64,000 bases of DNA, taken from Williamsia faeni. GTDB taxonomy: Bacteria; Actinomycetota; Actinomycetes; Mycobacteriales; Mycobacteriaceae. Location of the stretch: contig QJJF01000005.1 of assembly GCA_003202005.1 (NCBI GenBank), forward strand, positions 1 through 64,000. Direction: 5' to 3'. The notes below the pieces were generated by a model, which ran no database searches, had not been told where the DNA came from, and saw nothing but the letters and a program-made list of their open reading frames with translations. The position numbers and the translations under genes were made by a program. This document shows, in pieces, positions 39,884-64,000 of the stretch. Within the stretch, counting starts at the first letter, position 1; every line of letters begins with the position of its first letter.

Positions 39884-40195
39884 TGATGAGCGACATCTTC
39901 GAGTACTACGCCGCCGGTGCACCTCTTCCCGGAAGCTGGCAGGTGCTCACGTTGGTCGAGTCGGACGGTCACCATGAACGTGGCGGCCATTTGCGTGGCC
40001 ATCGCGTTGGTCGCGGCATTGGTGGTGCATGTCTGCTTCGGGCTCGCGGGTGCATTCGCGGCGATCTTCGTCTTGGTGTCTGGAGCTTGGCCGCGTGAGG
40101 TCTTCCGTTCCAGATGGGTAGAAGGTCACAACGACGTGTGGGGCAGATCGAATACGCCGCGGCTGTCGGTGTCCTCGGCAATGATGCTGAGATGA
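39883..40195 (+). pseudogene. Small membrane protein remnant
   Basis: An ATG overlapping the preceding TGA opens MMSDIFEYYAAGAPLPGSWQ. About 30 residues later the sensible reading moves to another frame, with ATG at 39974 and two hydrophobic spans (NVAAICVAIALVAALVVHV and FGLAGAFAAIFVLVSGA), then RSRWVEGHND. This suggests one frameshifted membrane-protein gene formerly coupled to the regulator. Alternatively the 39974 frame alone is a 73-residue protein. It overlaps the start of the AddB-like gene. Confidence 0.35.
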
Positions 40196-46000: not shown

Positions 46001-46255
46001 GGACTCGCTCCGGGCAGCGACATCGTGGTCGAGGGCATCGCTGACCTCGTCTATCGGGAGGACGATGGCTCCCTGGCGATCGTCGACTACAAGACCGACG
46101 TTGGCGTTTCGGCAGTGACGCTCGAGCAGTACTGGGCTCAATTGGCGATCTACGCGGACTTATTGCGGACTGCTACAGGCGAAGTGGTGTCGTCATTGGT
46201 GCTGATCTTCTGCCGACCCGACGCCGCGGTTGTGTTGCAGCGGCCGTTGATCTGA
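42995..46255 (+). CDS. AddA-like UvrD helicase with RecB nuclease domain
   Basis: About 1086 residues. Superfamily-1 motifs are FVEAGAGSGKTHSLV (Walker A, about 30-44), AITFTEKAAAELRER, LDEFQDTDPLQ (about 358-368), GDPKQSIYRFRRAD, NFRST, MTIHAAKGLQFP and LYVACTRAE. The C-terminal nuclease has GIADLVYREDDG and AIVDYKTD (about 1012-1033). It is a helicase-nuclease for processing DNA ends, partner to the AddB-like gene. ATG 42995 overlaps that gene's end by 11 bases; GTG at 42998 or 43007 are alternatives. The NERD gene follows after 13 bases. Confidence 0.9.
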   Translation: MVPDVTTSDAFLVDADERSRIENDTASTLFVEAGAGSGKTHSLVQRICHLVLVDCIELDNIAAITFTEKAAAELRERVRDELAAHDTAEAEAALTQVDTAALGTLHAFAARIVSEHPLEAGVPPRISVVDAMGSQLSFERRWRRMRTTLFSDEATAPEGLAEAMQVVIGTGASLNQVRTLADALDRSWDRLRLNDSSPVLSIPDIDAILQAADLAVDVMDECLDPTDNMVAGLARVRAWRDDIAAGRDTTVWMSVVGEYPKLGNTGRGPNWAGGAARLREIRTAIKEAGELAVATRHRYVASALAVVVHHLSVVVVDEARERQREGRLEFHDLLVHARDVVSNPEVQTAVHRRYQRIMLDEFQDTDPLQLDIARRIVAGHGATGRLFTVGDPKQSIYRFRRADIASYMAARDDTATADVVRLTTNFRSTKPVLDWVNSVFNTLVIPEEHIQAEYAALDPAPGRPDWTDSSWGPHPFTFADDSDPTDDEQGLSPAEVLRAREAKDVARIIGTAIAEGWQKETGGFGEYEHTPVDLSDICILIPSRSVLPFLEKSLDAAGIEFRSEASSLVYSTQEVHDLLVTARALSNTADGAALVAALRTPLFGCGDDDLLQWKGQGGRWDLFAGAPAEQKNSQVDTALRYLKDVWWGLGRLTPGALLSKLATDRRVFEVSMDSPRHRDVWRRLRFVIDQAHAWYGEDGGDLRDYLDWAATQQEESARVAEAVLPEIGVNAVRIMTIHAAKGLQFPMVIVAGMSGGIRKTSEPVLWDADGELQIYLAKSATSLGYRAVAATEKAHVDAERVRLLYVACTRAESLLAVSGYRTSREDCWGAIVARGVAGVPNEKPHLIDPVRDDDDFAGAVTELESWAQWETETERIAAISSLPSSLPVTEIVHEKRLEGTTLLQAYRAAELLTATGMGEKVPAAVGSTESGPALGTALHALLESGGLGVALDDAFDERARAAARIAGLVDADRFVLLARSALSSEPVRRAAMRDHWQEMPLGGLAPGSDIVVEGIADLVYREDDGSLAIVDYKTDVGVSAVTLEQYWAQLAIYADLLRTATGEVVSSLVLIFCRPDAAVVLQRPLI

Positions 46256-47975: not shown

Positions 47976-48431
47976 ATGGGAGCCGTAAACGAGCAGTCAG
48001 GAAGCAGCTGGCGCCCTCCGCCCTCATCTGTCGCGGTCCAAGCACGGATGGCTCGTCAGCGCCAACGGGATACGGATGCAGAGACTCAGGTCCGTAAGTA
48101 TCTTCATGCGAACGGCATCCGCTTCCGTGTCGATGCGAAGCTGGAGCCAGACCTTCGCACCAAGGGCGATATCGTCTGGCGGGGTCTCAAGCTGGTCGTG
48201 TTCATTGATGGTTGCTTCTGGCACGGCTGCCCTGAACATGCGACGCGCCCCAAGGCAAACGCCCGGTGGTGGGCCGAGAAACTAGACGCCAACATCGCAC
48301 GCGACCGCAAAACGGACGCTGAGCTGGCACGAAGGGGGTGGTCGGTCCTGAGATTCTGGGAGCACGAACTTCCGGAAGATGTCGCACAGTCCATCGCAGC
48401 CCGACTCGAAGCGCTCCGCGGTGAGTCTTAG
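47976..48431 (+). CDS. vsr: Vsr-type endonuclease (second copy)
   Basis: 151 residues with the full Vsr pattern: RQRQRDTDAETQVRKYLHAN, TKGDIVWRGLKLVVFIDGCF, then WHGCPEH and SVLRFWEHELPED. It differs substantially from the copy at 34046, so it is not a recent duplicate. A C5-methylase remnant overlaps its 3' end on the opposite strand, meaning its usual partner is dead here. Vsr-like nucleases are also known as accessory cutters beside DrmA/DrmB-like genes. It is in line with the preceding helicase gene. Confidence 0.92.
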   Translation: MGAVNEQSGSSWRPPPSSVAVQARMARQRQRDTDAETQVRKYLHANGIRFRVDAKLEPDLRTKGDIVWRGLKLVVFIDGCFWHGCPEHATRPKANARWWAEKLDANIARDRKTDAELARRGWSVLRFWEHELPEDVAQSIAARLEALRGES

Positions 48432-48720
48432 AAGTGGTCGAGCAGGTGTGGGCCGATCGCCTTCCGAGAGGGATCAGGACCGCGTTGCCAATGGCGATGG
48501 TGGTCTTCAATCGACCCACCTGAACGAATCGGGGAAGCCTTGCAGGACTGCCGCCTCGTAGTGGGTGATCGCCCGATTTCTGCGTGAGGTGAAGCCGCTT
48601 CCTCCGATACCACCCCGGGAATATTCGCTCCCTGGAACGTCATCGTCATCCAGCGCAGATCTCGCTCAGGGACTGCGCGGTCCGGGACGCGCATGCATTC
48701 GTCGACTGCAGGTAGATCTT
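48428..48720 (-). pseudogene. dcm: C5-cytosine DNA methyltransferase, C-terminal remnant
   Basis: On the minus strand, successive frames give FQGANIPG, GGIGGSGFTSRRNRAITHYE, then AAVLQGFPDSFRW (motif IX/X-type ExxxLQGFP) and IGNAV (motif X), ending AIGPHLLDHF and a stop at 48428. These are the hallmark C-terminal motifs of C5-methylases, split by frameshifts. No N-terminal motifs lie upstream (48720 onward). The segment 48720-49185 holds nothing further that I recognise. Confidence 0.65.
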
Positions 48721-49185
48721 GCAGTCAGGCCCTAGATGTCCCCCGAATAGACGACATCGCTGAACGTGGAGTGGTAGGTGGCAGCGGCGGCCAGATTCAA
48801 TTCGACGCGCTGGTCACGCTATATATCGAGCTCGCTTCGTGGAGCCCTCGGAGTGGCCTCCGGCCGCCGGCGAACCGGTCTAGCACTCCGATCTGATCCG
48901 AACCGTTCGCCATGGGCGTCTGTGGTACTTCGACCGGTGGACATTCGATCAACGGACACACAGGGTTTCGCCGACTTCGGGAGTTTGTCGGTGCTCTGTG
49001 CAAGAGTAATTCGCGAGCGCTTCCCACCGTCTTCGGTAACGATGACGGGTCGCTCAAACGACACCTACCTCCGTAGGTGCGCTTTGCCACAGCCGCCATC
49101 GGCTTTCGTGTGCGGACGGGACGCACTCCCACGAGAAACTAACCGACGATGCACGTCGGTCGCGAGAAGTGTGCAGGACAGGACT

Positions 49186-51003
49186 ATGACGAATGCAGAT
49201 CCCGGGTTCGAGCCAAACGAAGAACAGCGTGTAGTAGTCGAGTCGGCATTGGATGCACGACTCCTGGTCATCGCAGGTGCCGGTCAGGGCAAGACTGAGG
49301 TCGTTGCTTCACGTATCGGACACCTCGTGGAGACCGAAGAACTGTCGGCATCTCGCGAAATACTAGTGCTGAGCTTTTCTCGTGCAGCGGTGAACGCGGT
49401 GCGGACCAGGCTCACGGACCGAGAGTTCTCCGCCGAAGCGAACGTGCGGACGTTCGACTCATTTGCGTCGCTGCTATTGCTCGATGCCGATATCGAGCCG
49501 ACGGGTTCGTTTGACAATCGGATCCGTCAGGCGACCAAACTCCTGCAAGAGGCCGATGAACTACCCGACGACGTCGAAGAACTGCGCCATATCATCATGG
49601 ACGAGGTGCAAGATCTCGTCGGTGATCGAGCTGACTTCATCCTCGCCTTGCTGGACAAAATCGACCCAGATGTGGGTTTCACGGCATTGGGCGACCCCCT
49701 GCAAGGGATCTACAACTTCATTCTGGGTGATTCCGATAGTAAGACGACTTCGGATGAAGTGTTCAAGTTCCTCAAGAAGCTCGGTGCAAGTCAAGTGGGT
49801 CTTGGGAAGAACTACCGTGCTCGCGGTGATGATCCCAAGCGGGTAGTCGGGCTCGGCAACGAACTGCGCGAATCGCGACATGCCGAACTTGCTAAAGAGG
49901 TGCTGGACCGATTCGAGGCAACTCTGCCCCACGCTGGTGAGTTGGACGAGTGGCGTCCTGTGGTAGCAGGTGCAGAGAAAACGACGGCGGTTCTTTGCAG
50001 ATCCAACGCTGATGTTCTTTGGGTTTCGCGGCAACTCCGCCGCGAGGGCATCGACCATGTGATCCGTCGTGAAGCACAAGAGTTCGGTGCACCATCGTGG
50101 ATAGCAACATCGCTTGGCCGGATGTCGGGACCCGCCGCGAGCCGTGTCGAAGTTGATTCCGCCCTCCGACTCCACATGAACGACGAGGAAGCAGAAGATA
50201 GGTGGCACCTTCTCAAAGGTGCCGAGGGAAATGCCAAGCGCCTCAACGAACTGAATCTGGGCCGCCTTCGGAGCATGGTCCGAGAGGGCTCTCTGCCTCT
50301 TACCCTGACCCAGAGAGATACATCAAAGGTTGTTGTCTCAACCATCCATCGAGCCAAAGGGCTTGAGTTCGACCGTGTTGTCTTTGCGTACCCGGGTTAC
50401 GACCGCAAAGACCCGGATTTCGATGAGATGGTGAAAACGAGCTACGTTGCGCTGAGTCGGGCGAGAGACGGGATAGTCATCGTTGATCTGAAGCCGGGAC
50501 GTTACATCAAGCAGGAGTACTGGCTGAAGGGCCGATGGCAAGAACGGGTTCGAACGGCCAAGAAATCCACACGAACCAAGTCGCTCGAGGTCAAGGTTAG
50601 GGACACCGACGTCGACCGGCCCTTCGACTCACCGTTCATTTCTGCCGAATCCGTGCAGACGAATCTTCGCGATCGCGATCTCGCAGGGATCGACATCGAA
50701 GCACACCTCGACTTGACGCTATCAACCGTCGAGATCCCGATCTACGACCTTCGAGCTGACGACGGCAGGGTGCTGGGGAGAACGAGTGAATCGTTCGGCG
50801 ACGCGTTCGTGCGAGCGTTCGGTCAACGTCAAGGCACCTACCCCGCGACTCTCGCCGGGTTGTCACTCGTATCAGTCGACACCGTTGCCGGAGATCCGCA
50901 GTTCACTGAACAAGCCGGCATCGGGCTGTCCGGGTTCTGGCTTGTCCCACGGGTTGTCGGGCTTGCCGAACCTGACTGGAAATACATGGAGGATGTGTCG
51001 TGA
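49186..51003 (+). CDS. UvrD-like superfamily-1 helicase
   Basis: 605 residues from the ATG at 49186; the open frame upstream to 48778 is not protein-like. Motifs are LVIAGAGQGKTEVVA (Walker A, about 27-41), LSFSRAAVNAVRTRL, IIMDEVQDLVGDRA (about 135-148), GDPLQGIYNF and ISTIHRAKGLEFDRVV-type motif V (reads VSTIHRAKGLEF). The C-terminal 180 residues are a non-helicase region of unknown role. Its TGA overlaps the drmA GTG start by four bases (GTGA), so it is coupled to the DISARM core genes. Confidence 0.88.
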   Translation: MTNADPGFEPNEEQRVVVESALDARLLVIAGAGQGKTEVVASRIGHLVETEELSASREILVLSFSRAAVNAVRTRLTDREFSAEANVRTFDSFASLLLLDADIEPTGSFDNRIRQATKLLQEADELPDDVEELRHIIMDEVQDLVGDRADFILALLDKIDPDVGFTALGDPLQGIYNFILGDSDSKTTSDEVFKFLKKLGASQVGLGKNYRARGDDPKRVVGLGNELRESRHAELAKEVLDRFEATLPHAGELDEWRPVVAGAEKTTAVLCRSNADVLWVSRQLRREGIDHVIRREAQEFGAPSWIATSLGRMSGPAASRVEVDSALRLHMNDEEAEDRWHLLKGAEGNAKRLNELNLGRLRSMVREGSLPLTLTQRDTSKVVVSTIHRAKGLEFDRVVFAYPGYDRKDPDFDEMVKTSYVALSRARDGIVIVDLKPGRYIKQEYWLKGRWQERVRTAKKSTRTKSLEVKVRDTDVDRPFDSPFISAESVQTNLRDRDLAGIDIEAHLDLTLSTVEIPIYDLRADDGRVLGRTSESFGDAFVRAFGQRQGTYPATLAGLSLVSVDTVAGDPQFTEQAGIGLSGFWLVPRVVGLAEPDWKYMEDVS

Positions 51004-54000
51004 GCATGAAGCCAGCGCTGCAAGACAAGTATCGATTTCGTGACGAGCTGGTCGACGACCTGGTACTCGACGTCGTAGGCCCGGGTGGGGGAGAGGACGA
51101 ACTTCTCGAGGAGGCTCCCCTCGGCCGCTACCTTGTCGGGGTTCTTTGGCCCTCCGACGATGACCTTCAGGAGGGCATTGAACCTGATGGAGCCGAGCCT
51201 GAAAAGGACGGGGCGACAGACGATAGTCCGGTTGCGCAGGCGCGCATGAGGTTTCCCTCGTCCATGGGATTGACTTTTTCCGTTCGGGTGAAGGATGCGG
51301 ATTCGATCACGATCGCACCGTCGGCAGCTCGTTACGAAGAGCAGCCACTCGAAGGGGGAGACGAAGGCAAGGTGAAACGAAACCGCGATTCCAAGTGGCG
51401 ACGTGTGCCGGCGGTGATCAAGCCGTTGGTTCAAGGCGTGACCAAGCCGGGAACCTTCAGGGATCTTGTCGCGCCTGGATTGCAGTTATATCGGTATGTC
51501 AGGCCTGCCCGAGACGGTGTGGTCACAGTGTCAGTTGCACTGCGCAATGTACAGGTACCGCCGCTGAAGCAGATGCGAGATTCGTTCTCCTGGTTCCAGG
51601 TTGAGCTGGATATCCAGACGGACCAGCCCGCAATCGTCGATCGTACAAAGCATCGGAATGCTGGCAAGGACGACGATCTCGATAGCTCGGCATTGCTGTA
51701 TCGCAATGCCTACACCTTTGCAATCGGTCACGGGTGCGCTGTCGACTGGGATCTCGAGACGTCGGTGGGCGGAGCCACTACGACTGTGACGACAACTTTC
51801 TTGCCATCCTACGAGGTTGCTCGCGCGCGGCCCGCCCTCCTCAAATCTGTCGACCTGCGTATGTCCTTTCTGTCGGACGCGTCGAAGGACGAGGTCATCG
51901 GAAGCCTAGAGACCCTTGCCCAGCGCTATCGAGCGTGGATCGCGAAGCTAGGAGATTCGCTGTCAGCAGGCGAAACCGACGTCTCAGACGGCTTGCTCCC
52001 CACCGCGAAAAGGCACATCAAAGAGGCTGGGATCGCAGCTGGTCGAATCGAGGCCGGGATTCGTCTCTTGAGGGATGACGATGATGCATTGGATGCATTC
52101 AGATTGGCCAACAAGGCAATGCAACTTCAACGTGCTCGCCAGGATTGGGTGCGTTCGGGGGCCAAGGGTGACGTGGGTGACGGCGCAGGCGACCAGTGGT
52201 ATCCGTTTCAGATTGCCTACATCCTCCTCAATCTGCCGGGTCTGACGGACAGAAGGCACGAAGACCGCGAAAAGGCGGACCTCCTTTGGTTCCCAACTGG
52301 TGGCGGAAAGACCGAGGCGTACCTCGGTCTCGTCGCATACTCGATCATCGTTCGTAGATTGCGGGACTCCGATGCGACTGGCGTCGCCGTAATCATGCGA
52401 TACACCCTGCGTCTATTGACAATCCAACAGTTCGAGCGAGCAACGATGCTCATCTGTTCGCTCGAGACTGTCCGCAAGAGTGAATCCAGGCTCGGCAAGC
52501 TCCGATTTTCGATCGGATTGTGGGTAGGTTCCGGTGCGACTCCGAACTCATTGTCGGACGCCAAGAAGTCGCTTCGCGAACTGGCATCAGGGCGAGATCT
52601 GCAAGACAAGAATCCTGTTCAGCTCACCCAATGCCCTTGGTGTGGAACAGCATTGGACCACAAGAACTACACTATTCGGGCCGTTCCTGAGAAGCACATG
52701 CGAATCGGATGTAGGACTCCCGGTTGCGATTTTTCTGACGGTCTACCAGTCCACCTGATCGACGAGGATGTGTATCGAGAACGGCCCGAGTTGATATTGG
52801 GTACCGTCGACAAGTTCGCGGCAATGGCATGGAATGAAAACGTCGGTAAGTTGTTTGCCCGAGACGGAAAGGGCTATCCGCCAGATCTTATCATTCAGGA
52901 TGAGTTGCATCTCATCTCCGGGCCTTTGGGTTCGATAGTTGGGTTGTACGAGACGGCCGTTGACGCAGCATGTGAGATCCCCTCGATCGACGATGAATCG
53001 AACCGCGCGCGGCCAAAAGTGATTGCGTCGACGGCGACGATTAGGCGGGCACAGCAGCAGATTCGATCTGTTTTTGATCGCGAGGCAGCGCAATTCCCGC
53101 CTCCGGGAATCAATCCCGATGAATCATTCTTCGCCGAACCTGCGCCATCCGAGGCGCTGGGTACTCGTCGATACGTAGGGGTCATGGCGCCAGGTGCAAG
53201 TCACGCGACATTGCTGGTCCGGGTTTACTCAGCTCTGCTGCAGGCAGCCAAGGATGTCCAGGGTGACGACGTCACTCGAGATCCATATTGGACGTTACTC
53301 GGCTATTTCAATAGTTTGCGCGTCCTCGGTAGCGGTTATCTGCAGGTGGAGAGTGATGTCCGGGAACGGCTAGGCGTGGTGGCCGGCAGGAAGGGAACCG
53401 ACCCTCGGCTACTGACTCGGGCAATCGGCGAACTCACGAGTCGCGTTGCATCGTCGGAAATCCCGCAACAACTCAAGCAGCTGGAGAACAAACTCGGGGG
53501 TCCAGAACAACCGCTGGACGTCGTCCTCGCAACGAACATGATCTCAGTCGGAGTCGATATCGACCGACTCGGCCTGATGGCCGTTATGGGACAACCTCAA
53601 GCCAGCGCCGAGTACATCCAGGCGACGAGCCGTGTGGGACGTAAGCATCCCGGCCTCGTCGTCACGATCTTCAATGCTGCGCGGTCACGTGATCGTTCAC
53701 ACTACGAGAACTTCTTACCGTTCCATCAAGCCTTGTACCGCGCGGTGGAAGCAACGAGTGCAACACCTTTCGCTGCCCGGGCCCGTGATCGCGGATTACA
53801 CGGTGTCCTGGTGTCACTTGTGCGTCTCTTGGTGCCCGAACTTTCGTCGGATGGTTCTGCCTACCGTATCGATGACAGCTGGGACGCAGTCACCGCCATT
53901 GCCGATTTGATCGCGCGGCGCGTCCACAACGTGGCTGATGACGAGGAGCTCGATACGAAAGCGGAAGTCGCACAGCTGCTGGGTGTGTGGTCGGATGCAG

Positions 54001-54206
54001 CGGATGAACGGGAGTACATGCGGTACCGAAACTCCAAGAATCTGGAGGCGGCGTTGCTGGTTGACCCCGCTACCGCGTTGGTCGACGACGACATCGACTA
54101 CTCACAGAGTGACGTCCCGTGGCCCACGCTCCAAAGTATGCGGGACGTGGATGCAGAAAGTGGTCTCTATCAAATACCGATGAGCTCGATGAGGAGATCG
54201 TCATGA
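51000..54206 (+). CDS. drmA: DrmA-like DISARM helicase
   Basis: 1068 residues. The N-terminal DrmA signature is present (DLVLDVVGPGGGEDE...GRYLVGVLWP). The motor has LLWFPTGGGKTEAYLGL (Walker A, about 428-444), the DEAD-like IIQDELHLISGPLGS (about 631-645), VVLATNMISVGVDIDRLG and YIQATSRVGR (about 868-877). An internal zinc ribbon has CPWCG and CRTPGC (about 544-577). DrmA binds DNA and moves along it in the DISARM phage-restriction system with DrmB. Start is GTG 51000 (overlapping the helicase stop) or ATG 51006. It overlaps drmB by four bases. Confidence 0.93.
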   Translation: MSMKPALQDKYRFRDELVDDLVLDVVGPGGGEDELLEEAPLGRYLVGVLWPSDDDLQEGIEPDGAEPEKDGATDDSPVAQARMRFPSSMGLTFSVRVKDADSITIAPSAARYEEQPLEGGDEGKVKRNRDSKWRRVPAVIKPLVQGVTKPGTFRDLVAPGLQLYRYVRPARDGVVTVSVALRNVQVPPLKQMRDSFSWFQVELDIQTDQPAIVDRTKHRNAGKDDDLDSSALLYRNAYTFAIGHGCAVDWDLETSVGGATTTVTTTFLPSYEVARARPALLKSVDLRMSFLSDASKDEVIGSLETLAQRYRAWIAKLGDSLSAGETDVSDGLLPTAKRHIKEAGIAAGRIEAGIRLLRDDDDALDAFRLANKAMQLQRARQDWVRSGAKGDVGDGAGDQWYPFQIAYILLNLPGLTDRRHEDREKADLLWFPTGGGKTEAYLGLVAYSIIVRRLRDSDATGVAVIMRYTLRLLTIQQFERATMLICSLETVRKSESRLGKLRFSIGLWVGSGATPNSLSDAKKSLRELASGRDLQDKNPVQLTQCPWCGTALDHKNYTIRAVPEKHMRIGCRTPGCDFSDGLPVHLIDEDVYRERPELILGTVDKFAAMAWNENVGKLFARDGKGYPPDLIIQDELHLISGPLGSIVGLYETAVDAACEIPSIDDESNRARPKVIASTATIRRAQQQIRSVFDREAAQFPPPGINPDESFFAEPAPSEALGTRRYVGVMAPGASHATLLVRVYSALLQAAKDVQGDDVTRDPYWTLLGYFNSLRVLGSGYLQVESDVRERLGVVAGRKGTDPRLLTRAIGELTSRVASSEIPQQLKQLENKLGGPEQPLDVVLATNMISVGVDIDRLGLMAVMGQPQASAEYIQATSRVGRKHPGLVVTIFNAARSRDRSHYENFLPFHQALYRAVEATSATPFAARARDRGLHGVLVSLVRLLVPELSSDGSAYRIDDSWDAVTAIADLIARRVHNVADDEELDTKAEVAQLLGVWSDAADEREYMRYRNSKNLEAALLVDPATALVDDDIDYSQSDVPWPTLQSMRDVDAESGLYQIPMSSMRRSS

Positions 54207-55930: not shown

Positions 55931-56056
55931 TCGGAAACTGTCTTCGAACCCGTGACACCAGGCTGATCGATGAACGTAGATAGCGACTGATGCTCACAAT
56001 TTTTCGGATCTCGAGCCGATGATCGCAGAGTTGAGCCATACAGTGTGAGGAGCCCG

Positions 56057-58258
56057 ATGAGAACCGCCGTCCAGATGCACGACATGTTCTCGAGTTCGTA
56101 CAACCAACTCGACGGCAGCATTCGAAGCCGCGTCCTGACCTTCATGGTGAAGCTACAACAAGACCCGGACGCCCCAGGCCTTGACTTCAAACATCCGCAA
56201 GGGGCCGCGAGCAGCCACGTACGCACGGCGCGGGTCAACGACAACTATCGTGCAGTGTTGGTCAACGCAGGTGTCGACCAGAACAACAGCCGGCTCTGGC
56301 TGGTTGCAGTCAAGAAACACGACGACGCATACGAGTTCGCCCGCACCTTAACCTTGCAGGTGAACGGAAAGACGGGCGCAGCAGAACTGTTCGATCCCAT
56401 AGCCCTTGAGACGGCAGTGGGCAATGCCCGTTCCCTTCCGCGGAAGATGAAATCCGCGACGTGCATACCAGCAAATGTCAGCCGAGCAGACCTCGAACGA
56501 TTCGGTGTCGCACCTGACATCGCGAGTGAACTCAAGCAGGTCACTGACGAGGATGTGTTGCTTCAAATAGCGGAGGCGCTGCCGACCTCACAGGCCAGCG
56601 CGATACTCGATCTCGCGACAGGGAGGAGCCCGGAGCAAGTTTGGAGCGATCTTGTCATCGAGGAGCCTGGCCCCATCGACGTCGAGGATCTCGAAGCGGC
56701 TCTGAAACGTCCGTTGTCGCGTTTGAGTTTCACTGCAGTTGAAGGCGACAACGAGGATGAGTTGCGTGCGGTCTTGGAAGGAGACTTCGCAAAGTGGCGG
56801 GTTTGGTTGCACCCACTGCAGCGGAAGTTGGCCAACCACCAAGGGTGGAATGGTCCGTTCCGCGTGACCGGGGGTGCTGGAACTGGAAAGACTGTGACTG
56901 CCATCCACCGAGCCAGGTTTCTCGTCAAGCGGTTGGATAGCACTGGCGCGGACGGGAGCGCGAAGGTGCTCTTCACTACTTTCACTCGTAACCTAGCCGG
57001 AACCATCGCGGCGCAGCTCGTTCAGCTTGCGGGTCCAGCTATCACTGACCGGGTGCACGTCGTCAATATAGACAGCGTCGCGCGGTCGGTGCTGGCAGCT
57101 ACCGACGTCGGCCGCAACCTCGTCAACACCGCTCACCTCGTGTCCGCTGATAGCAGTGATTTGAAAGCGCTGTGGCAAACGGCTGCCGGTGCCAGCAGTG
57201 GCAGCTGGGATATCAGATTCCTCAGCGATGAATGGTCCCAGGTCGTCCTTGGAAACGCGATCGCTGACGAGGCGGGCTATTTGCGGGTCGCGCGTAGCGG
57301 TCGCTCGCAGCGGCTGAGCCGACCACAGCGGGCAGACGTCTGGAAGGCGATTGATCACTTCCAGCAGTTGATGCGCGCGCAGAATCTACTCACGTTCACA
57401 GAACTCGCGGCACGATCGGCGGCAGCGTTGGTAGCAGATCCAGGCCTTCGCAGGCAGTTCGGATACCGCCACGCCGTCATCGACGAGGCGCAGGATCTTC
57501 ATCCGGCCCACTGGAAGCTGCTGCGGGCATTGGTTGCTCCCGATACCGATGATCTCTTTATCGTCGGTGACGCACATCAGCGGATCTACGGTAGAGCCGC
57601 GCCGCTGTCGCGCTACGGAATCGAAACACGGGGACGCGCAAGACGATTGACGGTGAACTATCGGACGAGTCGACAAATTCTGCGGTGGTGCCTTGGCATC
57701 GTCGACCCCGATGTCGATGACCTGGACACGTCCTCCGAAACGTTGGCGGGTGCTCGATCAGTCTTCGGCGGGCCAGAGCCAGAGGTGCTTAATTTCGATT
57801 CGAAGGACGCCGAGAATAATGGAATCGCCGAGCAGATCGCCAGATGGATCGAAGGTGGGGTGCGGCCATCTGATATCGCGGTGTTTGCGTACGGGAATGG
57901 CGACGTGGAAGAAATCAGTGCCGCGATGCAGGGCACAAGTATCGAAACCACGATTGTGAATGAAAACACCAGAGAGGAAAAGCTAGGTGATGTAGTCAGG
58001 ATCATGACAATGCACCGCGCCAAAGGCCTTGAGTACCAAGCAGTTGTGATGGCCAGGATCGGTGAAGACTCGGTTCCGCCGTACTACGTTAAGCGGTTGC
58101 AGGGTGCCGATCGCGAGCAAGCCGAGCGGAAGGTCAGAAACGTTCTCTACGTGGCAGGCTCCCGTGCCCGTGAGCACCTGGCGGTCACTTGGGCGGGGGA
58201 GAAGTCGGCTCTGCTGAGTGGTGTAATGACTAGGGCAACCGGTTCGTCTGGCGGTTAG
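56057..58258 (+). CDS. UvrD-like helicase with N-terminal RelE/ParE-like domain
   Basis: 733 residues from the ATG at 56057 (GAGGAG upstream). Residues 1-100 resemble a RelE/ParE toxin fold (FMVKLQQDPDAPGLDFKH, then SHVRTARVNDNYRAVLV and LWLVAVKKHDDAYEFA). A linker of about 150 residues leads to a superfamily-1 helicase with FRVTGGAGTGKTVTAI (about 267-282), AVIDEAQDLHPAHWKLL (about 472-488), VGDAHQRIYG, IMTMHRAKGLEYQAVV and LYVAGSRARE. It sits directly after drmA-drmB, with a gap of about 125 bases. The role of the toxin-like domain is unknown; it may act as an RNA-binding or cutting module. Confidence 0.87.
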   Translation: MRTAVQMHDMFSSSYNQLDGSIRSRVLTFMVKLQQDPDAPGLDFKHPQGAASSHVRTARVNDNYRAVLVNAGVDQNNSRLWLVAVKKHDDAYEFARTLTLQVNGKTGAAELFDPIALETAVGNARSLPRKMKSATCIPANVSRADLERFGVAPDIASELKQVTDEDVLLQIAEALPTSQASAILDLATGRSPEQVWSDLVIEEPGPIDVEDLEAALKRPLSRLSFTAVEGDNEDELRAVLEGDFAKWRVWLHPLQRKLANHQGWNGPFRVTGGAGTGKTVTAIHRARFLVKRLDSTGADGSAKVLFTTFTRNLAGTIAAQLVQLAGPAITDRVHVVNIDSVARSVLAATDVGRNLVNTAHLVSADSSDLKALWQTAAGASSGSWDIRFLSDEWSQVVLGNAIADEAGYLRVARSGRSQRLSRPQRADVWKAIDHFQQLMRAQNLLTFTELAARSAAALVADPGLRRQFGYRHAVIDEAQDLHPAHWKLLRALVAPDTDDLFIVGDAHQRIYGRAAPLSRYGIETRGRARRLTVNYRTSRQILRWCLGIVDPDVDDLDTSSETLAGARSVFGGPEPEVLNFDSKDAENNGIAEQIARWIEGGVRPSDIAVFAYGNGDVEEISAAMQGTSIETTIVNENTREEKLGDVVRIMTMHRAKGLEYQAVVMARIGEDSVPPYYVKRLQGADREQAERKVRNVLYVAGSRAREHLAVTWAGEKSALLSGVMTRATGSSGG

Positions 58259-58266
58259 GTGTAGTC

Positions 58267-59988
58267 GTGGCGCGATTCTTCAAACAAGTACCCAAACTCC
58301 AACGCACTCGAATCAAGAAACCCAAACCTAGGACTGGTATCAAATCTGGGCCATGGGACCGCGAAATTGTCTTCAACACCGTCCCCGCGGCAGTGGCGGA
58401 AGATGCGCCTACTCCAGGACAGCAAGGCCCGGACCTGGCATTCGCAGAGCATGTTGTCGACTTCGACGATGAGACTCCATCTGTCGGTGACGGGCGAGTT
58501 GTTGAGGATGATTCGTGGGTGACCCCGGCGATCTTCTCGATGTTGGAGAAGCTGGAGGGCGTAGCAACGTGGCGTGAGTTGCGTGAATTGCTACCCAGAC
58601 CGGAGGTGGAGCGTGAGCTCCTGCACGGGGCGGGTGGCCGAATCACTTGGATGTCGGTCGGGTCTGCAGTGGTTGGCGTCGGTGGCTGGTCACCTCCATC
58701 CGAAGAAGACCGGATTGAAATGCTGTTGACGCTGCGTACAGGCTTCCAACGCAGCCCCGGATTTGTATATAAAGTTGTCGCCGAGGCCTTCGGTGAGTCA
58801 GAGATCGGTGAGGTTCCGGTCCCTCGACTGCGAGAGATCTGGGCAGAAATCGCCGCCGGCCGAAATGACCTGGATCTTGTCGTCGACGCACAAAGCCGGA
58901 ACACTGCCGCTGCCAGGGAGGATTCTCAGTCGGACCTGGACGAGGCCGAACCGCGGCAAAGTCAGCCTGCTCAAGAATTGCCGGACCCTATTCCTGTGGA
59001 ACCCATCTCGGTGGGCAATGACATGCGTGAACCCGCGTCAGAAGCTGAACCCAAGCAGTCCATAATTCATCAAAAATCTGTTGCACCGAAGGATCGCTCC
59101 TCTCCCATCAATGATTTGGCGATGTTTGAGTTCGCCAAACACGTGGCTGCCCGGAAGGGTACTGCAGTGCGCCTGCAGCCGGGGAGCACGTTGAATTCAA
59201 TGTCCGTCACCGGAGTCGACGGGGGTCAGCGTATCGTCCTGGTCGAGGGTAAGCGAGCCGGCAACTGGCGCGGACATCGAAGTGATGCGACATTCAAGCT
59301 GGACGGCACACGGCCAGACGTCCGGGTTTTCGTCGATGTCGCTGACCGTTTTGACACGAAGTTCTACATCATCGATGAGCTGGACTATGCCGACCGTGTT
59401 CGCAGCGACATGGACCGCTGGGTCCGAAAAGACGAGCACACCAGTGTATCTGACGACTATCCGATTCGACCCTCGCTGGTGGTGACGGGCATGGATCGCT
59501 GGGAACTGCTGGACCTCGAAGACTACCTCGACGGTATTCTGCTCAAATCGGTCGGTGTCGAGACACCACGAACGACCGTTGTTCCGGTAGTCGAATCGGT
59601 ACTATCTCCGCCGGTGGAAGTGCCAATCGAGGCCGGAGACGAGGCGTCGCCGGACCCAGACCAGGACCCGGCGGCGGCGTCGATGCCGCCGGCAAATCTG
59701 TCACCGTATGTAAACTCTTTGACCGGGCGAAAGCGCTGCAAACTTGCCCACCGGGGTCACGTGGTCAGCGGTATCGTGAGTGTCCGAACCCGCTACTTGA
59801 CAATTACGAGGGCTCCGAGATTCGAAAGACTGGAGAAGTTCCAGCCTTTCAGGAATCCGGCCACCGCAGCCGCGGCAGTTAAGTCCGCAATCGAAAACCG
59901 GGTTGTCTTTGGCTATACCGATGACTGGCTGTTGGATGACGGTAGCGAACGGGTCGTCAGTGAAGTACTCAGCTGGTCGACCAGATAG
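58267..59988 (+). CDS. Unknown protein of the DISARM-like cluster
   Basis: 573 residues, starting GTG 8 bases after the preceding stop. The N-terminus is very basic (KLQRTRIKKPKPRTG). A structured region (about 75-205) follows, then an acidic low-complexity linker rich in Pro, Glu and Asp. A second region (about 280-430) contains IVLVEGKRAGNWRGHRSD, which could include an E-x-K nuclease-like pair, and a C-terminal region (about 480-573). I cannot assign a family. It ends only 24 bases before a converging operon, so it is the last plus-strand gene. Confidence 0.7.
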   Translation: MARFFKQVPKLQRTRIKKPKPRTGIKSGPWDREIVFNTVPAAVAEDAPTPGQQGPDLAFAEHVVDFDDETPSVGDGRVVEDDSWVTPAIFSMLEKLEGVATWRELRELLPRPEVERELLHGAGGRITWMSVGSAVVGVGGWSPPSEEDRIEMLLTLRTGFQRSPGFVYKVVAEAFGESEIGEVPVPRLREIWAEIAAGRNDLDLVVDAQSRNTAAAREDSQSDLDEAEPRQSQPAQELPDPIPVEPISVGNDMREPASEAEPKQSIIHQKSVAPKDRSSPINDLAMFEFAKHVAARKGTAVRLQPGSTLNSMSVTGVDGGQRIVLVEGKRAGNWRGHRSDATFKLDGTRPDVRVFVDVADRFDTKFYIIDELDYADRVRSDMDRWVRKDEHTSVSDDYPIRPSLVVTGMDRWELLDLEDYLDGILLKSVGVETPRTTVVPVVESVLSPPVEVPIEAGDEASPDPDQDPAAASMPPANLSPYVNSLTGRKRCKLAHRGHVVSGIVSVRTRYLTITRAPRFERLEKFQPFRNPATAAAAVKSAIENRVVFGYTDDWLLDDGSERVVSEVLSWSTR

Positions 59989-60012
59989 GCTCCTCGCGGC
60001 CTTGTTGAATGC

Positions 60013-60858
60013 TCAGACAGGCCTATCGGCATTCCTCAGCGCCTGACCCGGCTTCCCAGACAAGGCTCGGCCGAAATACTGGATGGGCTCGAGCTCGAAA
60101 TCATCTTCGGTAACTGCACCCTCATGGGTCACCAGGACACCTGACCGGGTGGTCAGCGCAATGGAATGGAAGATCCAGATCGCGTACTTGTTCGAATACT
60201 TGCGTGAATGCGCGATTTCACCTGATGAGATGAAAAATCGCGGCTCACCCGATTTGGTGCCTTTCACCTCGATGTACTGGACGATCTCGCCGTTGCGGTG
60301 CACTTCGATGTCGAAGCCGGGATTGTTGTGAGGCATTCTGACGACCAAGTCCCCGGGGTAACGCTTTTCGGCTTCGGCCATCGCCAAGGCCATTGCAAGC
60401 TCATCGACTTCGACTGCGGTATTCGGCGCTGCGTACTTGCCGGGTTGGTCCGGGAGTTCTGGCAAACCTGCTCGGCAGATCGCGTCGTATGCGATCTGGT
60501 CCAATGACCGAACGCCGACCTGGAAGTAGAAACCAACAGCTTTTCTGCTGTTCGCGGGCGGCTCGCGGTACGTCTGGCCATCCTTGAAGCCGACCGGCTT
60601 CTCGAAAGGTTGATAGTTGGTGATTGTGCATCGATATCGGTCACCGATTTCGTTTACCGTGCTGACTACACCGGTCCCAAGATAGGAGGGTGTGGTCGTT
60701 GACCCGTCCGCTCGTCGCCGACCGCGGTAGTAGACAAATTGTTCACCTGGCAGGATCAGCGTGCGATACCGGGCAGGGTACTCGTAAGTTTCGCCGAGGA
60801 CGTCGGCATATTCAAGGTTGGACAAATTGACTTCATTTTGAGTCAGAACGAGGGGCAT
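60013..60858 (-). CDS. DUF3883 PD-(D/E)XK-like protein
   Basis: 281 residues. The C-terminal DUF3883 domain (about 125-260) contains NNPGFDIEVHRNG and QYIEVKGTKSGE, giving the D...E-x-K pattern of a nuclease-like fold. The N-terminal part (about 15-110) is beta-rich, with YPARYRTLILPGEQFVYYRG and YLGTGVVSTV, resembling PUA/EVE-like modified-base readers of McrA-type enzymes; that comparison is tentative. It starts three bases after a TAG and is the last gene of a minus-strand operon. Confidence 0.8.
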   Translation of the reverse strand: MPLVLTQNEVNLSNLEYADVLGETYEYPARYRTLILPGEQFVYYRGRRRADGSTTTPSYLGTGVVSTVNEIGDRYRCTITNYQPFEKPVGFKDGQTYREPPANSRKAVGFYFQVGVRSLDQIAYDAICRAGLPELPDQPGKYAAPNTAVEVDELAMALAMAEAEKRYPGDLVVRMPHNNPGFDIEVHRNGEIVQYIEVKGTKSGEPRFFISSGEIAHSRKYSNKYAIWIFHSIALTTRSGVLVTHEGAVTEDDFELEPIQYFGRALSGKPGQALRNADRPV

Positions 60859-60861
60859 TTC

Positions 60862-61065
60862 CTAGTTATCGCTTTCAATCAGATGTATTTTGTTGCCTGC
60901 GTTGAGCAGAACGGGTGCCGAGATTCGCTGCGGCAGAATGTGCGTACGACCACCCTCGATTCGCAATCGCATAACCTTCCTGCCTTGAGGAATCGCTTGT
61001 GTCAGTGCAGTTGGGCCCGGTAACAGGCGCGTTCCAGTCTCCAGGTATCTCAGGTTGACCGACAA
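60862..61065 (-). CDS. Small ORF overlapping DUF6339 end, or frameshifted C-terminus
   Basis: A 67-residue frame from a TTG start runs out of frame under the 3' end of the DUF6339 gene. It ends TAG three bases before the DUF3883 ATG. Its text (LLPGPTALTQAIPQGRKVMR and ISAPVLLNAGNKIHLIESDN) looks more protein-like than the Ser/Ala/Gln-rich text of the DUF6339 frame in the same stretch. It is either a separate coupled small gene or the true C-terminus after a frameshift near 61060. Confidence 0.45.
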   Translation of the reverse strand: MSVNLRYLETGTRLLPGPTALTQAIPQGRKVMRLRIEGGRTHILPQRISAPVLLNAGNKIHLIESDN

Positions 61066-61765
61066 CCCACTCGAGGTAGTTTCGAAAGTCGTCGCGCTGA
61101 AAACCGGTCTCCGCCTCGGGCGGAGAACCTGCTGTTGCCAAGTTCAACACTCGTGCAAGGTCATTGATGTCGTCTGCGGTTGTGGGGTTTGCGATCGTCG
61201 AGGCCCCTGGCTGATCGTTTGGAGTGATCAGCTCGACGACACCGAGAGCGAGCGATCTGCATCGAATCAGCGGGCGATGCAGGTAGCTGTTGGGAAGATC
61301 TTGAAAAACGAACGCGCGCTCTACCGGCGCATAGTCCGACCCGTCACGGAAGAGTTCCGCACCCCACCATAGGCGAGCGAACGCCTGTTTGTGGATTGGG
61401 CCACGCCAACGATTCTGTGCCACTTCGCCTCTGGCGCCCCAACGCCATTCGACATAATCGTTGAACCGGGTCGCCAGCCAAGCCCACAGATCCTGATCCG
61501 ACGCGTCAGATCGCGTCAGCCGCAAGGAATTGTGAACCCTCGGCGCCAACCACCTGTCGCTCTCGGACGCGTCAGGCCAGACATCCTTACGCTGTCCAAC
61601 CTCATCGATGAGGGCACTGAGTGGTACGATAGAAAGTTCGGAACCGTCGGTTGCGCGTTCGACTGTCTCGGAATCACCCTCCCAATCCTGCTCATCGATA
61701 ATTCTCCGGCGGGAGGCTTGATCCAGCCGGCGAGTCAAGCGCCGCAGTGTTTCCGTGTCAGACAA
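60875..61765 (-). CDS. DUF6339 family protein
   Basis: 296 residues from the TTG at 61765, chosen because GAGGAGG lies 7 bases upstream; ATG 61789 would place that site inside the gene. The family signature is visible: WLAPRVHNSLRLTRSDASD, then DLWAWLATRFNDYVEWRW and FARLWWGAELFRDGSDYA. DUF6339 proteins are of unknown function and, as I recall, occur in gene clusters with DUF1998/DrmB-like and helicase genes. It overlaps the stop of the upstream gene by 8 bases. The last 60 residues may be out of frame, as described for the small ORF at 60862. Confidence 0.75.
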   Translation of the reverse strand: MSDTETLRRLTRRLDQASRRRIIDEQDWEGDSETVERATDGSELSIVPLSALIDEVGQRKDVWPDASESDRWLAPRVHNSLRLTRSDASDQDLWAWLATRFNDYVEWRWGARGEVAQNRWRGPIHKQAFARLWWGAELFRDGSDYAPVERAFVFQDLPNSYLHRPLIRCRSLALGVVELITPNDQPGASTIANPTTADDINDLARVLNLATAGSPPEAETGFQRDDFRNYLEWVVGQPEIPGDWNAPVTGPNCTDTSDSSRQEGYAIANRGWSYAHSAAANLGTRSAQRRQQNTSD

Positions 61766-62705
61766 ACTGCACCTCCTCAGTCGCCACACCTACCGCGGCA
61801 GACGCTTGCGTAAGCATGTCTATGGCAGCATCTACATTGGCCCAAAGCTCGGCGGTGGCAGTGCGATCGCCGTTCGCTCGGGCAACGGACTCGTAGAGCT
61901 CGTCGACCGATGTCAAGTGTGGAATGGCGTTTGCGATCGCTTCACAAGTCTGACGGAGTAGTGGGCTGGAGGGGCCTGTGATGTCGTCGTCCTCAACCAA
62001 GACCTCTGCGGCGGCGACCCGAAACAGCGTGGTAACCGTGTATCTCGCAATCTGCGACCCGATCAGGTCACGCAGCCTTCGCTTCTCCAATTTTGCGTTC
62101 TCCGACATCAAGAGAGCCTGCAACCCTGGCAATCCCGAGTTGAGGTAGAGCACCGGCGTGTCCGACCCGGCATCCAGCGCCGCATAGGACTGAGTATTCT
62201 TTCGGGCGACAGGAGGCGCGTCGGAGGCGCTGAAGTCTGCCCAAACTTGGGCAATGGGAGGACGTCCAGACTTCGGAGGTACCTCGAAGCGACGCAGCAC
62301 AATGGTCCATGGAACTGAGCTGGCGACAACCCGATTGCGCCCGTTGTGGTTGGCAACGATTTCAACGGTAAGGGTCGCCGTATCTCGCAACAGCGCTCGC
62401 TCCAACTCGATCAGGCCGCTCACTCGCGTCTTCGTATCGGAATCGAGTGCTAGTCCGAATGGAATACGTGTATTTGTCGAGGTGCACGAAATCAGGGCAT
62501 ATCCGGCCAGCATGTTCACGCCGTTCGGAATGCTTTCGTTAGTGTGCGCCACGACCTCAATGGTCGCAGTTTTCCAGTCTTCTTGGTCGAGGTGAACGCG
62601 GTATTGCTGGTCGCCATCGACAGGCTCACCTGTGTCCAGCGACACGGATTCAAGGTCACACTGCCACAGTCCGGCAAAGGTCGGCCAAGCGACGCGAGGG
62701 GTCAT
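61758..62705 (-). CDS. Unknown protein of the converging defence operon
   Basis: 315 residues, not recognised. The N-terminal half (about 1-140) is a run of beta strands reminiscent of a beta-sandwich (FAGLWQCDLESVSLDTG, then TATIEVVAHTNESIPNG and ATLTVEIVANHNGRN). The C-terminal half is helical, with VLYLNSGLPGLQALLMSEN. Its ATG overlaps the upstream stop (ATGA), and its own end overlaps the DUF6339 gene, so these genes are co-translated. Confidence 0.7.
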   Translation of the reverse strand: MTPRVAWPTFAGLWQCDLESVSLDTGEPVDGDQQYRVHLDQEDWKTATIEVVAHTNESIPNGVNMLAGYALISCTSTNTRIPFGLALDSDTKTRVSGLIELERALLRDTATLTVEIVANHNGRNRVVASSVPWTIVLRRFEVPPKSGRPPIAQVWADFSASDAPPVARKNTQSYAALDAGSDTPVLYLNSGLPGLQALLMSENAKLEKRRLRDLIGSQIARYTVTTLFRVAAAEVLVEDDDITGPSSPLLRQTCEAIANAIPHLTSVDELYESVARANGDRTATAELWANVDAAIDMLTQASAAVGVATEEVQFV

Positions 62706-64000
62706 AGGTTGGGAACCTGCCCATCCAGAGTGCTCAAATCCCGCAGCGCGATATCGATGGCGGCCTCCTCGGCGGGTATCGGAAGCTGGTCCGTCGACAC
62801 TGCCTCAAGCGTCGCTTTGATGAATCTACCCCGATCTTTCGCTGCCAGTATTGCGACCTCGCCGTCCATCTTCGCGTCTTTGGAACTTATAGCTTCCCAA
62901 GGTATCTCGATGCTTCGGCCGTCGAGCCCGAAAAAGAAGAGGGTGGGAGCGATGCGCCATCCGTTGGGACGATTACGTGCCCTGATCTGAAAAGTGATAT
63001 GCCACTTTCCGTTTCTGACATCCCACTTCTCAATGGTTACCGATGGTTTGGCGGTCGTAGTCGATCCCGAGCCTCCATGGCCGGGCTCTCCGCGTAAGAA
63101 GGAGAGGTGTTTGAACACCGATGCGGGAGGCTTGCCGTCCGATGCTGGGGGCGCGCCGAATATCTCGTAGAGCGCCGCAAGGATCTCACTTTCGATCTTG
63201 CGGAGGTTTGGTAACCAGGGTGGCGCGTAGTGGGCGTTTAGGCTCGACTGCGAGGTCTTACCTCGTCCTGCCCGAGGTATCCAGCGATCATGTGCAGGAG
63301 GCTCGGCAAAGCGGAGGAAATCATCGGCCGATCTTGCTGCGTTGTCTTCTACCTGCGGGTGGATCGCGCCTCCCGTCAGCAGGAAGGCATGGTAAGTATG
63401 ATTCTCGAACGATTTATCAATCGTTTGCACAATCATCTCCGGTTTCCGAAACAAGCACACCCTATTTTCCAGGGTGTCTTTTTGATCATCTGAGATCGTG
63501 ACGACAAGTTGCGCTTGGTGTGTGAACTTCGAATGAGTCGGAGCGGATTTCCGCCGCGGTACATCGATTGGTATCTCCCGGGTGACAACAGAATACGGTC
63601 CGCTCAACTCCTCGTCGACGTCGCCATCATCGAACCTGCGGAGAGCTCGGACCAGCTCTGTGTACGTATCTTCGGGGTCGACATCGACCCTGAACGCCTG
63701 TTTGTCATTATCGGTTACTCGGATGGTGACGTCCATCTTCCGACGGGCGAGTAACGGCCAGAAGTTCTCCTCGATGCCGGCGCGGAGCGCAGTCGCCATC
63801 TCGATAACTCCAGTCACACCGCGCTGCACCGTTTCGGGTTCGTCAGGATCGTAGAATCCTACGAGGAGGGCTGTCGTGCCGGGACGATCGTCAGATCGAT
63901 CAACGTATAGTTCGCGAACCAAGTCGGGTGGAGCCCACGTCGAGGCCACGTTCTCGGTTTCGTCTTTCACACCGAAGTAGCCACGCCCCTGAAAGGATTC
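62702..64000 (-). CDS. C-terminal part of a large unknown protein, cut by window edge
   Basis: The frame stays open to the window's right edge and reads protein-like up to it (SFQGRGYFGVKDETENV). The GTG at 63970 is therefore probably internal and the 5' end lies outside. The visible 430 residues include a region with TIRVTDNDKQAFRVDVDPE, HTYHAFLLTGGAIHPQ, ADDFLRFAEPPAHDRW and a beta-rich end. The RGYFGVK segment followed by such a domain could be the tail of a GHKL/Hsp90-like ATPase, but the ATP-binding boxes are not in view. Confidence 0.7.
   Translation of the reverse strand, partial: ESFQGRGYFGVKDETENVASTWAPPDLVRELYVDRSDDRPGTTALLVGFYDPDEPETVQRGVTGVIEMATALRAGIEENFWPLLARRKMDVTIRVTDNDKQAFRVDVDPEDTYTELVRALRRFDDGDVDEELSGPYSVVTREIPIDVPRRKSAPTHSKFTHQAQLVVTISDDQKDTLENRVCLFRKPEMIVQTIDKSFENHTYHAFLLTGGAIHPQVEDNAARSADDFLRFAEPPAHDRWIPRAGRGKTSQSSLNAHYAPPWLPNLRKIESEILAALYEIFGAPPASDGKPPASVFKHLSFLRGEPGHGGSGSTTTAKPSVTIEKWDVRNGKWHITFQIRARNRPNGWRIAPTLFFFGLDGRSIEIPWEAISSKDAKMDGEVAILAAKDRGRFIKATLEAVSTDQLPIPAEEAAIDIALRDLSTLDGQVPNL

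Follow-up and report, generated by a model that had tools for sequence, protein, structure and literature searches.

A DISARM-like gene cluster of Williamsia faeni looks like a reduced copy of a larger anti-phage locus of actinobacteria

In class 2 of the anti-phage system DISARM (defence island system associated with restriction–modification), drmA, drmB, drmC and drmE accompany a 5-methylcytosine (5mC) DNA methylase. In a study of Serratia DISARM, DrmAB is described as binding 5′-overhang DNA and as autoinhibited by a trigger loop, with an ATPase rate that is lowered by 5mC; it discriminates by DNA structure, DISARM can restrict phages without methylation sites, DrmC appears non-essential, and DISARM targeting remains unclear (PMC9142583). 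According to three further sources, ARMADA Type II needs all four of its genes, and its ArmD is a GajB-like UvrD helicase to which a RelE-like RNase domain is joined (Bell et al. 2025 preprint, PMC12458937); on the model of MutL and UvrD, a DNA-looping role in restriction systems was suggested for GHKL proteins of the MORC/paraMORC type that stand with superfamily 2 (SF2) helicases, cytosine methylases and Vsr (Iyer et al. 2008, PMC2292703); and Shield ShdA occurs in DISARM-like operons as a different partner (PMC10270631). Here we compare these systems with a DrmA/DrmB gene cluster in a 64,000-nucleotide stretch of Williamsia faeni contig QJJF01000005.1 (the window; positions beyond 64000 are given as coordinates of C5, the 275-kb contig that holds it). 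The stretch looks like a reduced copy of a larger anti-phage gene cluster that is more complete in other actinobacteria: the core DNA-unwinding genes are intact, the methylase expected to protect the host lies in ruins, and other parts are gone.

We consider that the window probably belongs, in reduced form, to a DISARM-like class found mainly in Actinomycetota. In its fuller form, this class comprises a 5mC methylase (sometimes with Vsr), a fusion of a sacsin-type GHKL ATPase with an SF2 helicase (GHKL-SF2), a superfamily 1 (SF1) helicase of the UvrD or NERD-UvrD type, DrmA and DrmB, often together with a GHKL-type M33 operon and, in some lineages, with an ARMADA Type II operon behind DrmB.

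The core of the window cluster consists of the genes for UvrD, DrmA and DrmB, which overlap (UvrD and DrmA by 4 nt) and read as one operon on the plus strand (Table 1). A sequence-only reading of the window had described drmA and drmB as intact and coupled to a UvrD-like helicase upstream, and this description was borne out: both proteins score above the NCBIfam cut-offs, DrmA as the short form of its family, and both frames are open, with Walker A (GGGKT) and DELH kept in DrmA and CxxC pairs in DrmB. Helicase motifs are present in UvrD, DrmA and the ArmD homolog behind DrmB. The DrmB open reading frame (ORF) permits an alternative start at 54119. The UvrD ORF was listed from 48778, and its start is most likely the ATG at 49186, giving 605 residues, because the nearest homologs measure 597–641 residues (G230, 610; G178, 629; Tsukamurella, 597; G359, 641; Prescottella, 608; G and L numbers are our handles for genomes and loci) and because the additional 136 codons overlie the methylase relics described below. 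The UvrD ORF of G067 is longer (1045 residues).

Compared with DISARM class 2, the window shares the short form of DrmA and DrmB, and the 5mC methylase that stands near many of its relatives is present as relics only; it differs in that no DrmC was detected, an SF1 helicase lies directly before drmA, relatives carry a GHKL-SF2 fusion, and ArmD and M33 genes are attached. Scanning of proteins encoded at 46.3–79.9 kb gave no phospholipase D (PLD) match, and those from 46.3 kb to the window edge include no intact methylase, as the first reading had stated. The 20 kb that end at C5:80000 were scanned and contain no standard drmC/drmM pair; to the right of the window, NaeI, 5mC methylase, GmrSD and Mza genes stand instead.

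We then surveyed relatives of the cassette. Of 249 genomes of the order, 47 gave a DrmB match; we set aside five of these, with E values of 3e-7 to 6e-5, and fetched the others. The ORF map of this survey holds 37 DrmB contexts, including one plasmid record; of 37 further loci fetched, 28 gave a DrmB context, and nine fetched loci were missed by ORF picking. In the close relatives G230, G178, G067, G020 and G076, UvrD, DrmA and DrmB follow one another in this order, and in four of the five (not G067) the gene directly before UvrD encodes a protein of 1567–1596 residues that begins with a sacsin/GHKL-like region and ends with an SF2 helicase. With eight of these GHKL-SF2 proteins aligned as query, we obtained 78 named loci (best 80 of 434 relatives), and in 67 of these loci, selected by the GHKL-SF2 gene itself, a fixed tblastn rule placed an SF1 helicase, DrmA and DrmB directly downstream (60 of the UvrD type, 7 of the NERD-UvrD type). 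Among the remaining 11, L109 has, by the ORF map, a UvrD that escaped the rule, L169 has the three genes on its upstream side, L167, L170 and L173 have DrmAB with the SF1 gene undetected, L155 has none of the genes, L145, L166 and L168 leave less than 4.5 kb downstream, and in L140 and L161 DrmAB is encoded on the opposite strand. Of the 78 loci, 62 have a 5mC methylase in the vicinity (profile, weakest E 7e-7) and 2 a PglX-like methylase; Vsr was found in 14, ArmA in 8 and ArmD in 11. Among the best 80 matches in viral contigs, one (L186) was nearly full-length to the GHKL-SF2 alignment, and its downstream side lies off the contig. In G178, a distance of about 27 kb separates two different copies of GHKL-UvrD-DrmA-DrmB (L037–L039), one with ARMADA and the other with DrmB in two pieces.

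The recurrence of this set bears on whether the window holds an ordinary DISARM class 2 system with bystanders, a reading that we regard as very unlikely. The short form of DrmA (NF038325) and the 5mC type of the ruined methylase speak for it; on the other side, UvrD and GHKL-SF2 recur in fixed order, and blastp with one DrmC reference (DrmC was compared, not DrmE) gave no match in any of the 78 loci. Furthermore, a simple test for the HKD pattern revealed no PLD-type gene behind DrmB in GHKL-class loci: of 65 contexts, 30 have a same-strand gene within 300 nt, and the three with the pattern (L109, L110 and L122) are all ArmA-type. The test is able to find such genes, since in five class-1-like loci of the order survey (L062, L068, L070, L079 and L084) it detects small HKD genes following DrmB. 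At other positions in the 78 loci, the pattern occurs in four ORFs of 200–700 residues. Two of them encode the UvrD of L142 and the DrmB of L184; the other two (L109, 5495–6634; L110, 7195–8100) lie upstream of Vsr and could be PLD-type proteins, a caveat to this test.

By gene content, the relatives look like a DISARM-like class with helicases in place of DrmC. Compared with the MORC/paraMORC neighbourhoods, they share a GHKL ATPase, an SF2 helicase, a cytosine methylase and Vsr, whereas the accessible text on those operons mentions no DrmAB or UvrD gene (PMC2292703), and in the loci described here GHKL and the SF2 helicase form one fusion protein, behind which SF1 and DrmAB are encoded. The PADLOC model TmtA resembles the GHKL part of the fusion; no paper on it was found in the open-access literature. 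One preprint on the family mentions such classes, in its accessible part, only as uncharacterised. In the open-access literature (subscription papers, supplements and most preprints lay outside the search), no description was found of GHKL-SF2 with DrmAB, of ArmD behind DrmB or of PDC-M33 with DrmAB, and we provisionally regard the class as undescribed. The first reading had proposed an undescribed defence system in the window; the conserved, recurring set supports that proposal in part, and the window itself is most simply a reduced copy of a larger locus, not a complete, self-contained system.

The fullest counterpart was found in Prescottella agglutinans (NZ_RKLP01000009.1), in the order 5mC methylase, GHKL-SF2, UvrD, DrmA, DrmB, ArmA, ArmB, ArmC, ArmD, a minus-strand gene of 212 residues and minus-strand M33C-M33b-M33A. 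Its proteins are 56% (UvrD), 67% (DrmA), 67% (DrmB), 65% (ArmD), 58% (M33C), 47% (M33b) and 64% (M33A) identical to those of the window, which has the Prescottella order minus the intact methylase, GHKL-SF2 and ArmA-C, plus the genes for a 573-residue protein and a NOV_C protein at the meeting point of the two operons. G359, a species of the same genus, has Vsr, a gene of 340 residues, UvrD, DrmA, DrmB, ArmA, ArmB (split into two ORFs), ArmC, ArmD and a UvrD paralog, likewise in two ORFs; GHKL-SF2 is absent from this locus. The Tsukamurella locus has a 5mC methylase, a RelA/SpoT-type gene, UvrD, DrmA, DrmB, ArmA, ArmB, ArmC (two ORFs), ArmD and UvrD; smc, rnc and mutM adjoin it on its record, 'plasmid 10' (L050, NZ_LR134452.1), which may be a chromosomal fragment.

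In a DrmA tree (FastTree, 118 sequences), the window falls in a 70-leaf clade with support 0.999, whose leaves other than the window, G067, Tsukamurella and G359 carry the GHKL gene, at least 58 of them having been fetched by that gene. Within this clade, support is 0.994 for a group of the window, Nocardia L119, Prescottella, Tsukamurella and G359, and 0.67 for one of the window, L119 and Prescottella. The window shows two features of the GHKL-SF2 class, the SF1 gene directly before DrmA and this placement of its DrmA, and lacks the fusion; no full-length GHKL-SF2 was found in its own genome, where matches are partial. On this tree, the simpler reading would be that the GHKL gene was lost in the window and separately in the Tsukamurella/G359 line.

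The methylase left traces. Two relics on the minus strand, a C-terminal piece at about 48445–48602 and an N-terminal piece at about 48735–48946, in different frames, lie in the 754-bp gap between Vsr and UvrD; by tblastn, 26 of 74 query methylases matched at E<1e-3 (best E 4.8e-10), whereas the best control among 100 shuffles (first-order Markov samples) reached 1.5e-5. Of 200 control pieces, three fell below 1e-4, two of which are a second methylase relic at 34–35 kb and one the shuffle at 1.5e-5. The relic is nearest to the methylases of L124, L171 and L173 (5e-10 to 6e-7), which are located upstream of the cassette. The window Vsr is 63–65% identical to the Vsr of L108, L109, L110, L112 and L116, where a 5mC methylase lies between Vsr and the GHKL-UvrD-DrmA-DrmB cassette, and 66% identical to that of G359. 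Most simply, these sequences suggest that a 5mC methylase was lost in the window and left its relics beside Vsr. A second Vsr gene (34046–34540, minus) adjoins a broken 5mC methylase (PF00145 at 34662–35018, plus, two internal TGA); this pair spans 34046–35093, and both Vsr genes of the window thus adjoin ruined methylases.

Behind DrmB, at no more than 126 bp from its stop, the window has a full-length ArmD homolog (start 56045 or 56057, end 58258), which is 60% identical to the ArmD of Tsukamurella, 64% to G359 and 65% to Prescottella, where it is the last gene of ARMADA operons, and 58% to that of Nocardia L119. The first reading had called this gene a RelE-like–UvrD fusion. The UvrD part is supported by Foldseek matches of the structure model; the RelE-like N-terminus was not confirmed, a PDB sequence search returning nothing relevant and the top 50 Foldseek rows containing no RelE, while the strand/helix order of the model is compatible with a RelE-like fold. 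Long N-terminal read-ins from ORF calling are present in the ArmD alignment for L120, L155, L165 and L168. Compared with ARMADA Type II, the window keeps ArmD only, and its YprA-type protein is a DISARM-type DrmA with DrmB, not ArmC; DrmB is followed by ArmA-B-C-D in Prescottella and G178, as it is in G359 and Tsukamurella, where some of these genes are split. ArmD stands just behind DrmB without ArmA-C in the window, L119, L147, L159 and G230 (in G230 with an ORF of 114 residues between), the last four of which do have the GHKL gene. G178 combines GHKL-SF2 with ArmA-D, and its near relative G230 (78–80% DNA identity) has ArmD without ArmA-C. No ArmD relative was found in viral contigs.

Converging on the core, a minus-strand operon ends at 60013, 24 nt from the end of the preceding gene at 59988. 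The first reading was right on its four genes and on this spacing; its fourth gene, M33A, runs on to 64621 and does not start at 63970. Since the window holds only part of M33A, we modelled the ortholog of L165 (mean pLDDT 68.7): all 29 Foldseek matches at E<=0.001 were topoisomerase VI-B, TRAP1 and gyrase B chains (E down to 2e-8), and by this model M33A is predicted to be a GHKL ATPase fold. The M33A and M33C models of the PADLOC candidate PDC-M33 match this operon; the literature searched gave no link of PDC-M33 to DrmAB. M33A was found in 35 of the 78 GHKL-SF2 loci by tblastn (29 by profile on ORFs), and in L146, L157, L159 and L172 M33C-M33b-M33A stands divergent to GHKL-UvrD-DrmA-DrmB, with one or two 5mC methylases behind.

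These neighbours could also be independent defence modules, DrmAB, ArmD and M33 merely sharing an island, which we think unlikely. The window is a dense defence island, ArmD homologs occur at other places in several genomes, and M33 stands without DrmAB in G166 and G239. Against such chance assembly, a genome-wide check of M33A and ArmD in 50 of the 78 loci, a sample selected by the GHKL gene, found 31 genomes with one M33A match each: in 29 of them it lies inside the fetched locus, in L162 directly next to it, and in Prescottella past ArmD, at a distance of about 16 kb. In the 249 genomes of the order, a sample not selected by GHKL, M33A matched in 15, five strongly (at least 173 bits) and ten weakly (35–46 bits), and three of the five strong matches (the window, G230 and G076) lie within 15 kb of UvrD-DrmAB; ArmD just behind DrmB in five loci points the same way. 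On the recurrence that the first reading had proposed to check, UvrD-DrmA-DrmB is a conserved cassette, ArmD recurs in the position behind DrmB, and the DUF6339 (PDC-M33) operon is found repeatedly in the neighbourhood.

Several observations weigh against the window being a reduced copy of one class. The best match to a GHKL relic in the Vsr–UvrD gap has E 0.013, and the loss of that gene thus rests on absence; a GHKL gene beside UvrD is also missing in G067, Tsukamurella and G359, and the 78 loci were gathered by means of this very gene. ArmA-C are absent from the window, with no convincing relic behind DrmB and no deletion scar. The relic matches the methylases of L108–L116 at 8e-4 to 7, and the synteny with these Vsr-bearing loci is therefore positional only, because the relic resembles the L124/L171 methylases. 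Two of the five strong M33A matches, in G166 and G239, come with no DrmB match, no DrmAB in the 40 kb fetched, and 5mC methylases beside M33; M33A being present in 35 of the 78 loci and in three of the five strong order cases, yet standing without DrmAB in these two genomes, M33 is a frequent, not an obligatory, partner.

If the window is a reduced copy, its surviving genes may be working or decaying. In a four-way comparison of the window, G359, Prescottella and Tsukamurella, singleton changes in DrmA/UvrD/ArmD numbered 53/22/43 for the window, compared with 54/29/40 for Prescottella and 28/24/23 for G359, the last counted with its sister Tsukamurella in the set; the Prescottella figures for DrmB were left out, since another protein stood in that row. 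The surviving genes are not faster-evolving than in the fuller locus and therefore may still work; such counts argue against long neutral decay and would be compatible with a recent loss. Deprived of methylase and GHKL-SF2, UvrD-DrmA-DrmB-ArmD might have ceased to act in defence and be retained only because little time has passed since the loss, which is possible and, on balance, doubtful. Methylase relics in several frames, the lack of a full-length GHKL-SF2 in the genome, the absence of ArmA-C and the second broken Vsr–methylase pair all fit decay, whereas four open genes over about 9 kb, the kept helicase motifs, the lack of a singleton excess over Prescottella, and ArmD behind DrmB without ArmA-C in GHKL-bearing G230, L119, L147 and L159 do not.

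Conversely, DrmAB, UvrD and ArmD might form a working minimal system that discriminates by DNA structure and dispenses with the methylase. The open window genes are consistent with this, as are the discrimination by structure and the restriction of phages without methylation sites in the published account of DISARM (PMC9142583). It is nevertheless improbable, in that a 5mC methylase has been kept close to the locus in 62 of the 78 relatives, the ATPase of DrmAB slows on methylated DNA in the same account, and methylation in trans is possible: in addition to the broken copy at 34.7 kb, the genome has a full-length 5mC methylase at C5:75013 and, at C23:27104, an open frame that corresponds to the family's first half.

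Table 1 Genes and relics of the cluster, with the evidence for each assignment (aa, amino acids).
Feature	Position	Strand	Evidence
Vsr endonuclease	47976..48431	+	Pfam Vsr 5.1e-16; adjoins ruined 5mC methylase
5mC DNA methyltransferase relics, pseudogene	48445..48946	-	tblastn with 74 5mC methylases, best E 4.8e-10
UvrD/GajB-like SF1 helicase (U1), 605 aa	49186..51003	+	UvrD-helicase 2.1e-22; AGAGQGKT, DEVQD; same-place orthologs
DrmA, YprA-family SF2 helicase, 1068 aa	51000..54206	+	NCBIfam DISARM_DrmAS (NF038325) 1030 bits, cut-off 950; PADLOC DrmA 3.4e-245; GGGKT, DELH; tree
DrmB (DUF1998/MZB protein), 575 aa	54203..55930	+	NCBIfam DrmB_fam (NF038324) 471 bits, cut-off 240; MZB 8.8e-8
ArmD homolog, 733 aa: N-terminal region and UvrD helicase	56057..58258	+	58-65% identity to ArmD relatives; model/Foldseek UvrD matches
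573-aa protein	58267..59988	+	homolog of the C-terminal half of SF2 helicases; outside conserved cassette
NOV_C (DUF3883) protein, 281 aa	60013..60858	-	PF13020 1.6e-11
M33C, DUF6339 family, 304 aa	60875..61789	-	PF19866 1.6e-11; PDC-M33C 2.7e-5; orthologs in G230, Prescottella, Streptomyces
M33b (our own label), 315 aa, unknown fold	61758..62705	-	no family match in Pfam, PADLOC and NCBIfam scans; orthologs likewise flanked by M33C and M33A in G230, Prescottella, Streptomyces
M33A, GHKL ATPase, 639 aa	62702..64000, on to C5:64621	-	PDC-M33A 1.2e-22; model of L165 ortholog

The 573-residue protein behind ArmD had been named in the first reading as a candidate member of the conserved set, and this was ruled out: no relative was found in pattern scans of genome and viral contigs or by tblastn of plasmids. 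It is 30% identical over 494 columns to the genome's own SF2 helicase at C5:67387–70491, has no Pfam or NCBIfam family and one marginal PADLOC match (E 0.0076), and its tail compares with a RAMA-like domain at an hhalign probability of 1.7. Its residues 285–440, approximately, are shared with small proteins of unknown function (about 255–313 residues), with some match in 73 of 301 family genomes.

The genes to the right of the window (C5:65066–79888) encode two proteins of the GmrSD type, one of which has RAMA, as well as an SF2 helicase, a NaeI-type endonuclease accompanied by a 5mC methylase (C5:72909–76101) and a second MzaC-like protein. To the left of the cluster (40114–46255), a PDDEXK_1 protein of 963 residues overlaps a UvrD helicase of 1097 residues, an AddAB-like pair, and a NERD-UvrD gene follows 13 nt on, then Vsr. 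The NERD-UvrD is 67% identical to one near the UvrD-DrmA-DrmB of G067 and is not part of the conserved set. Farther left lies a mixed Mza/Hma cluster (22024–33899), in which MzaC-, MzaD- and MzaB-like genes are followed by minus-strand matches to HmaC and HmaB (DNA adenine methylase). The first reading had suggested that the DrmAB system might depend on the adenine methylase at 31–34 kb, a suggestion we abandon: that gene is the HmaB match of a separate cluster, and the relatives keep 5mC rather than PglX-like methylases (62 versus 2 of 78).

Gene content, order, relatedness and folds being the observations, we infer from them the following functional steps. DrmAB would load on phage DNA with a single-stranded end and translocate, as others have reported for Serratia DISARM. 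The co-transcribed UvrD would replace DrmC as processing partner, unwinding DNA so that other nucleases act, and the GHKL proteins might be MutL/MORC-like clamps or loopers that couple DNA recognition to the helicases; UvrD and the GHKL-SF2 proteins together would then form the processing machine instead of DrmC. ArmD may be an exchangeable effector, and 5mC would mark self in the fuller loci. With methylase and GHKL-SF2 lost, the remaining genes would therefore need to tell DNA apart by its structure or rely on 5mC from another place in the genome, or else they would form a remnant that is partly disarmed.

Taken further, the loci suggest an undescribed Actinomycetota DISARM-like class in which a fusion of a MutL/MORC-type GHKL ATPase with an SF2 helicase works with SF1 and DrmAB, is 5mC-marked, and often has a second GHKL module (M33ABC). 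DrmC would be replaced by a MutL-UvrD-Vsr-like machine resembling very-short-patch repair turned on phage DNA, ArmD would be a plug-in effector, and the window would be a natural experiment without the methylase. We put this forward tentatively, at somewhat less than an even chance.

How DISARM destroys phage DNA yet spares the host is unsettled. A large DrmAB clade without detected DrmC, and with fixed SF1 and GHKL-SF2 helicases, names candidate partners that can be tested, and an ArmD gene or an ARMADA operon behind DrmB shows how two defence systems may exchange parts. Furthermore, the ruined methylase together with intact helicases in Williamsia faeni lets one test whether methylation is needed for self-tolerance.

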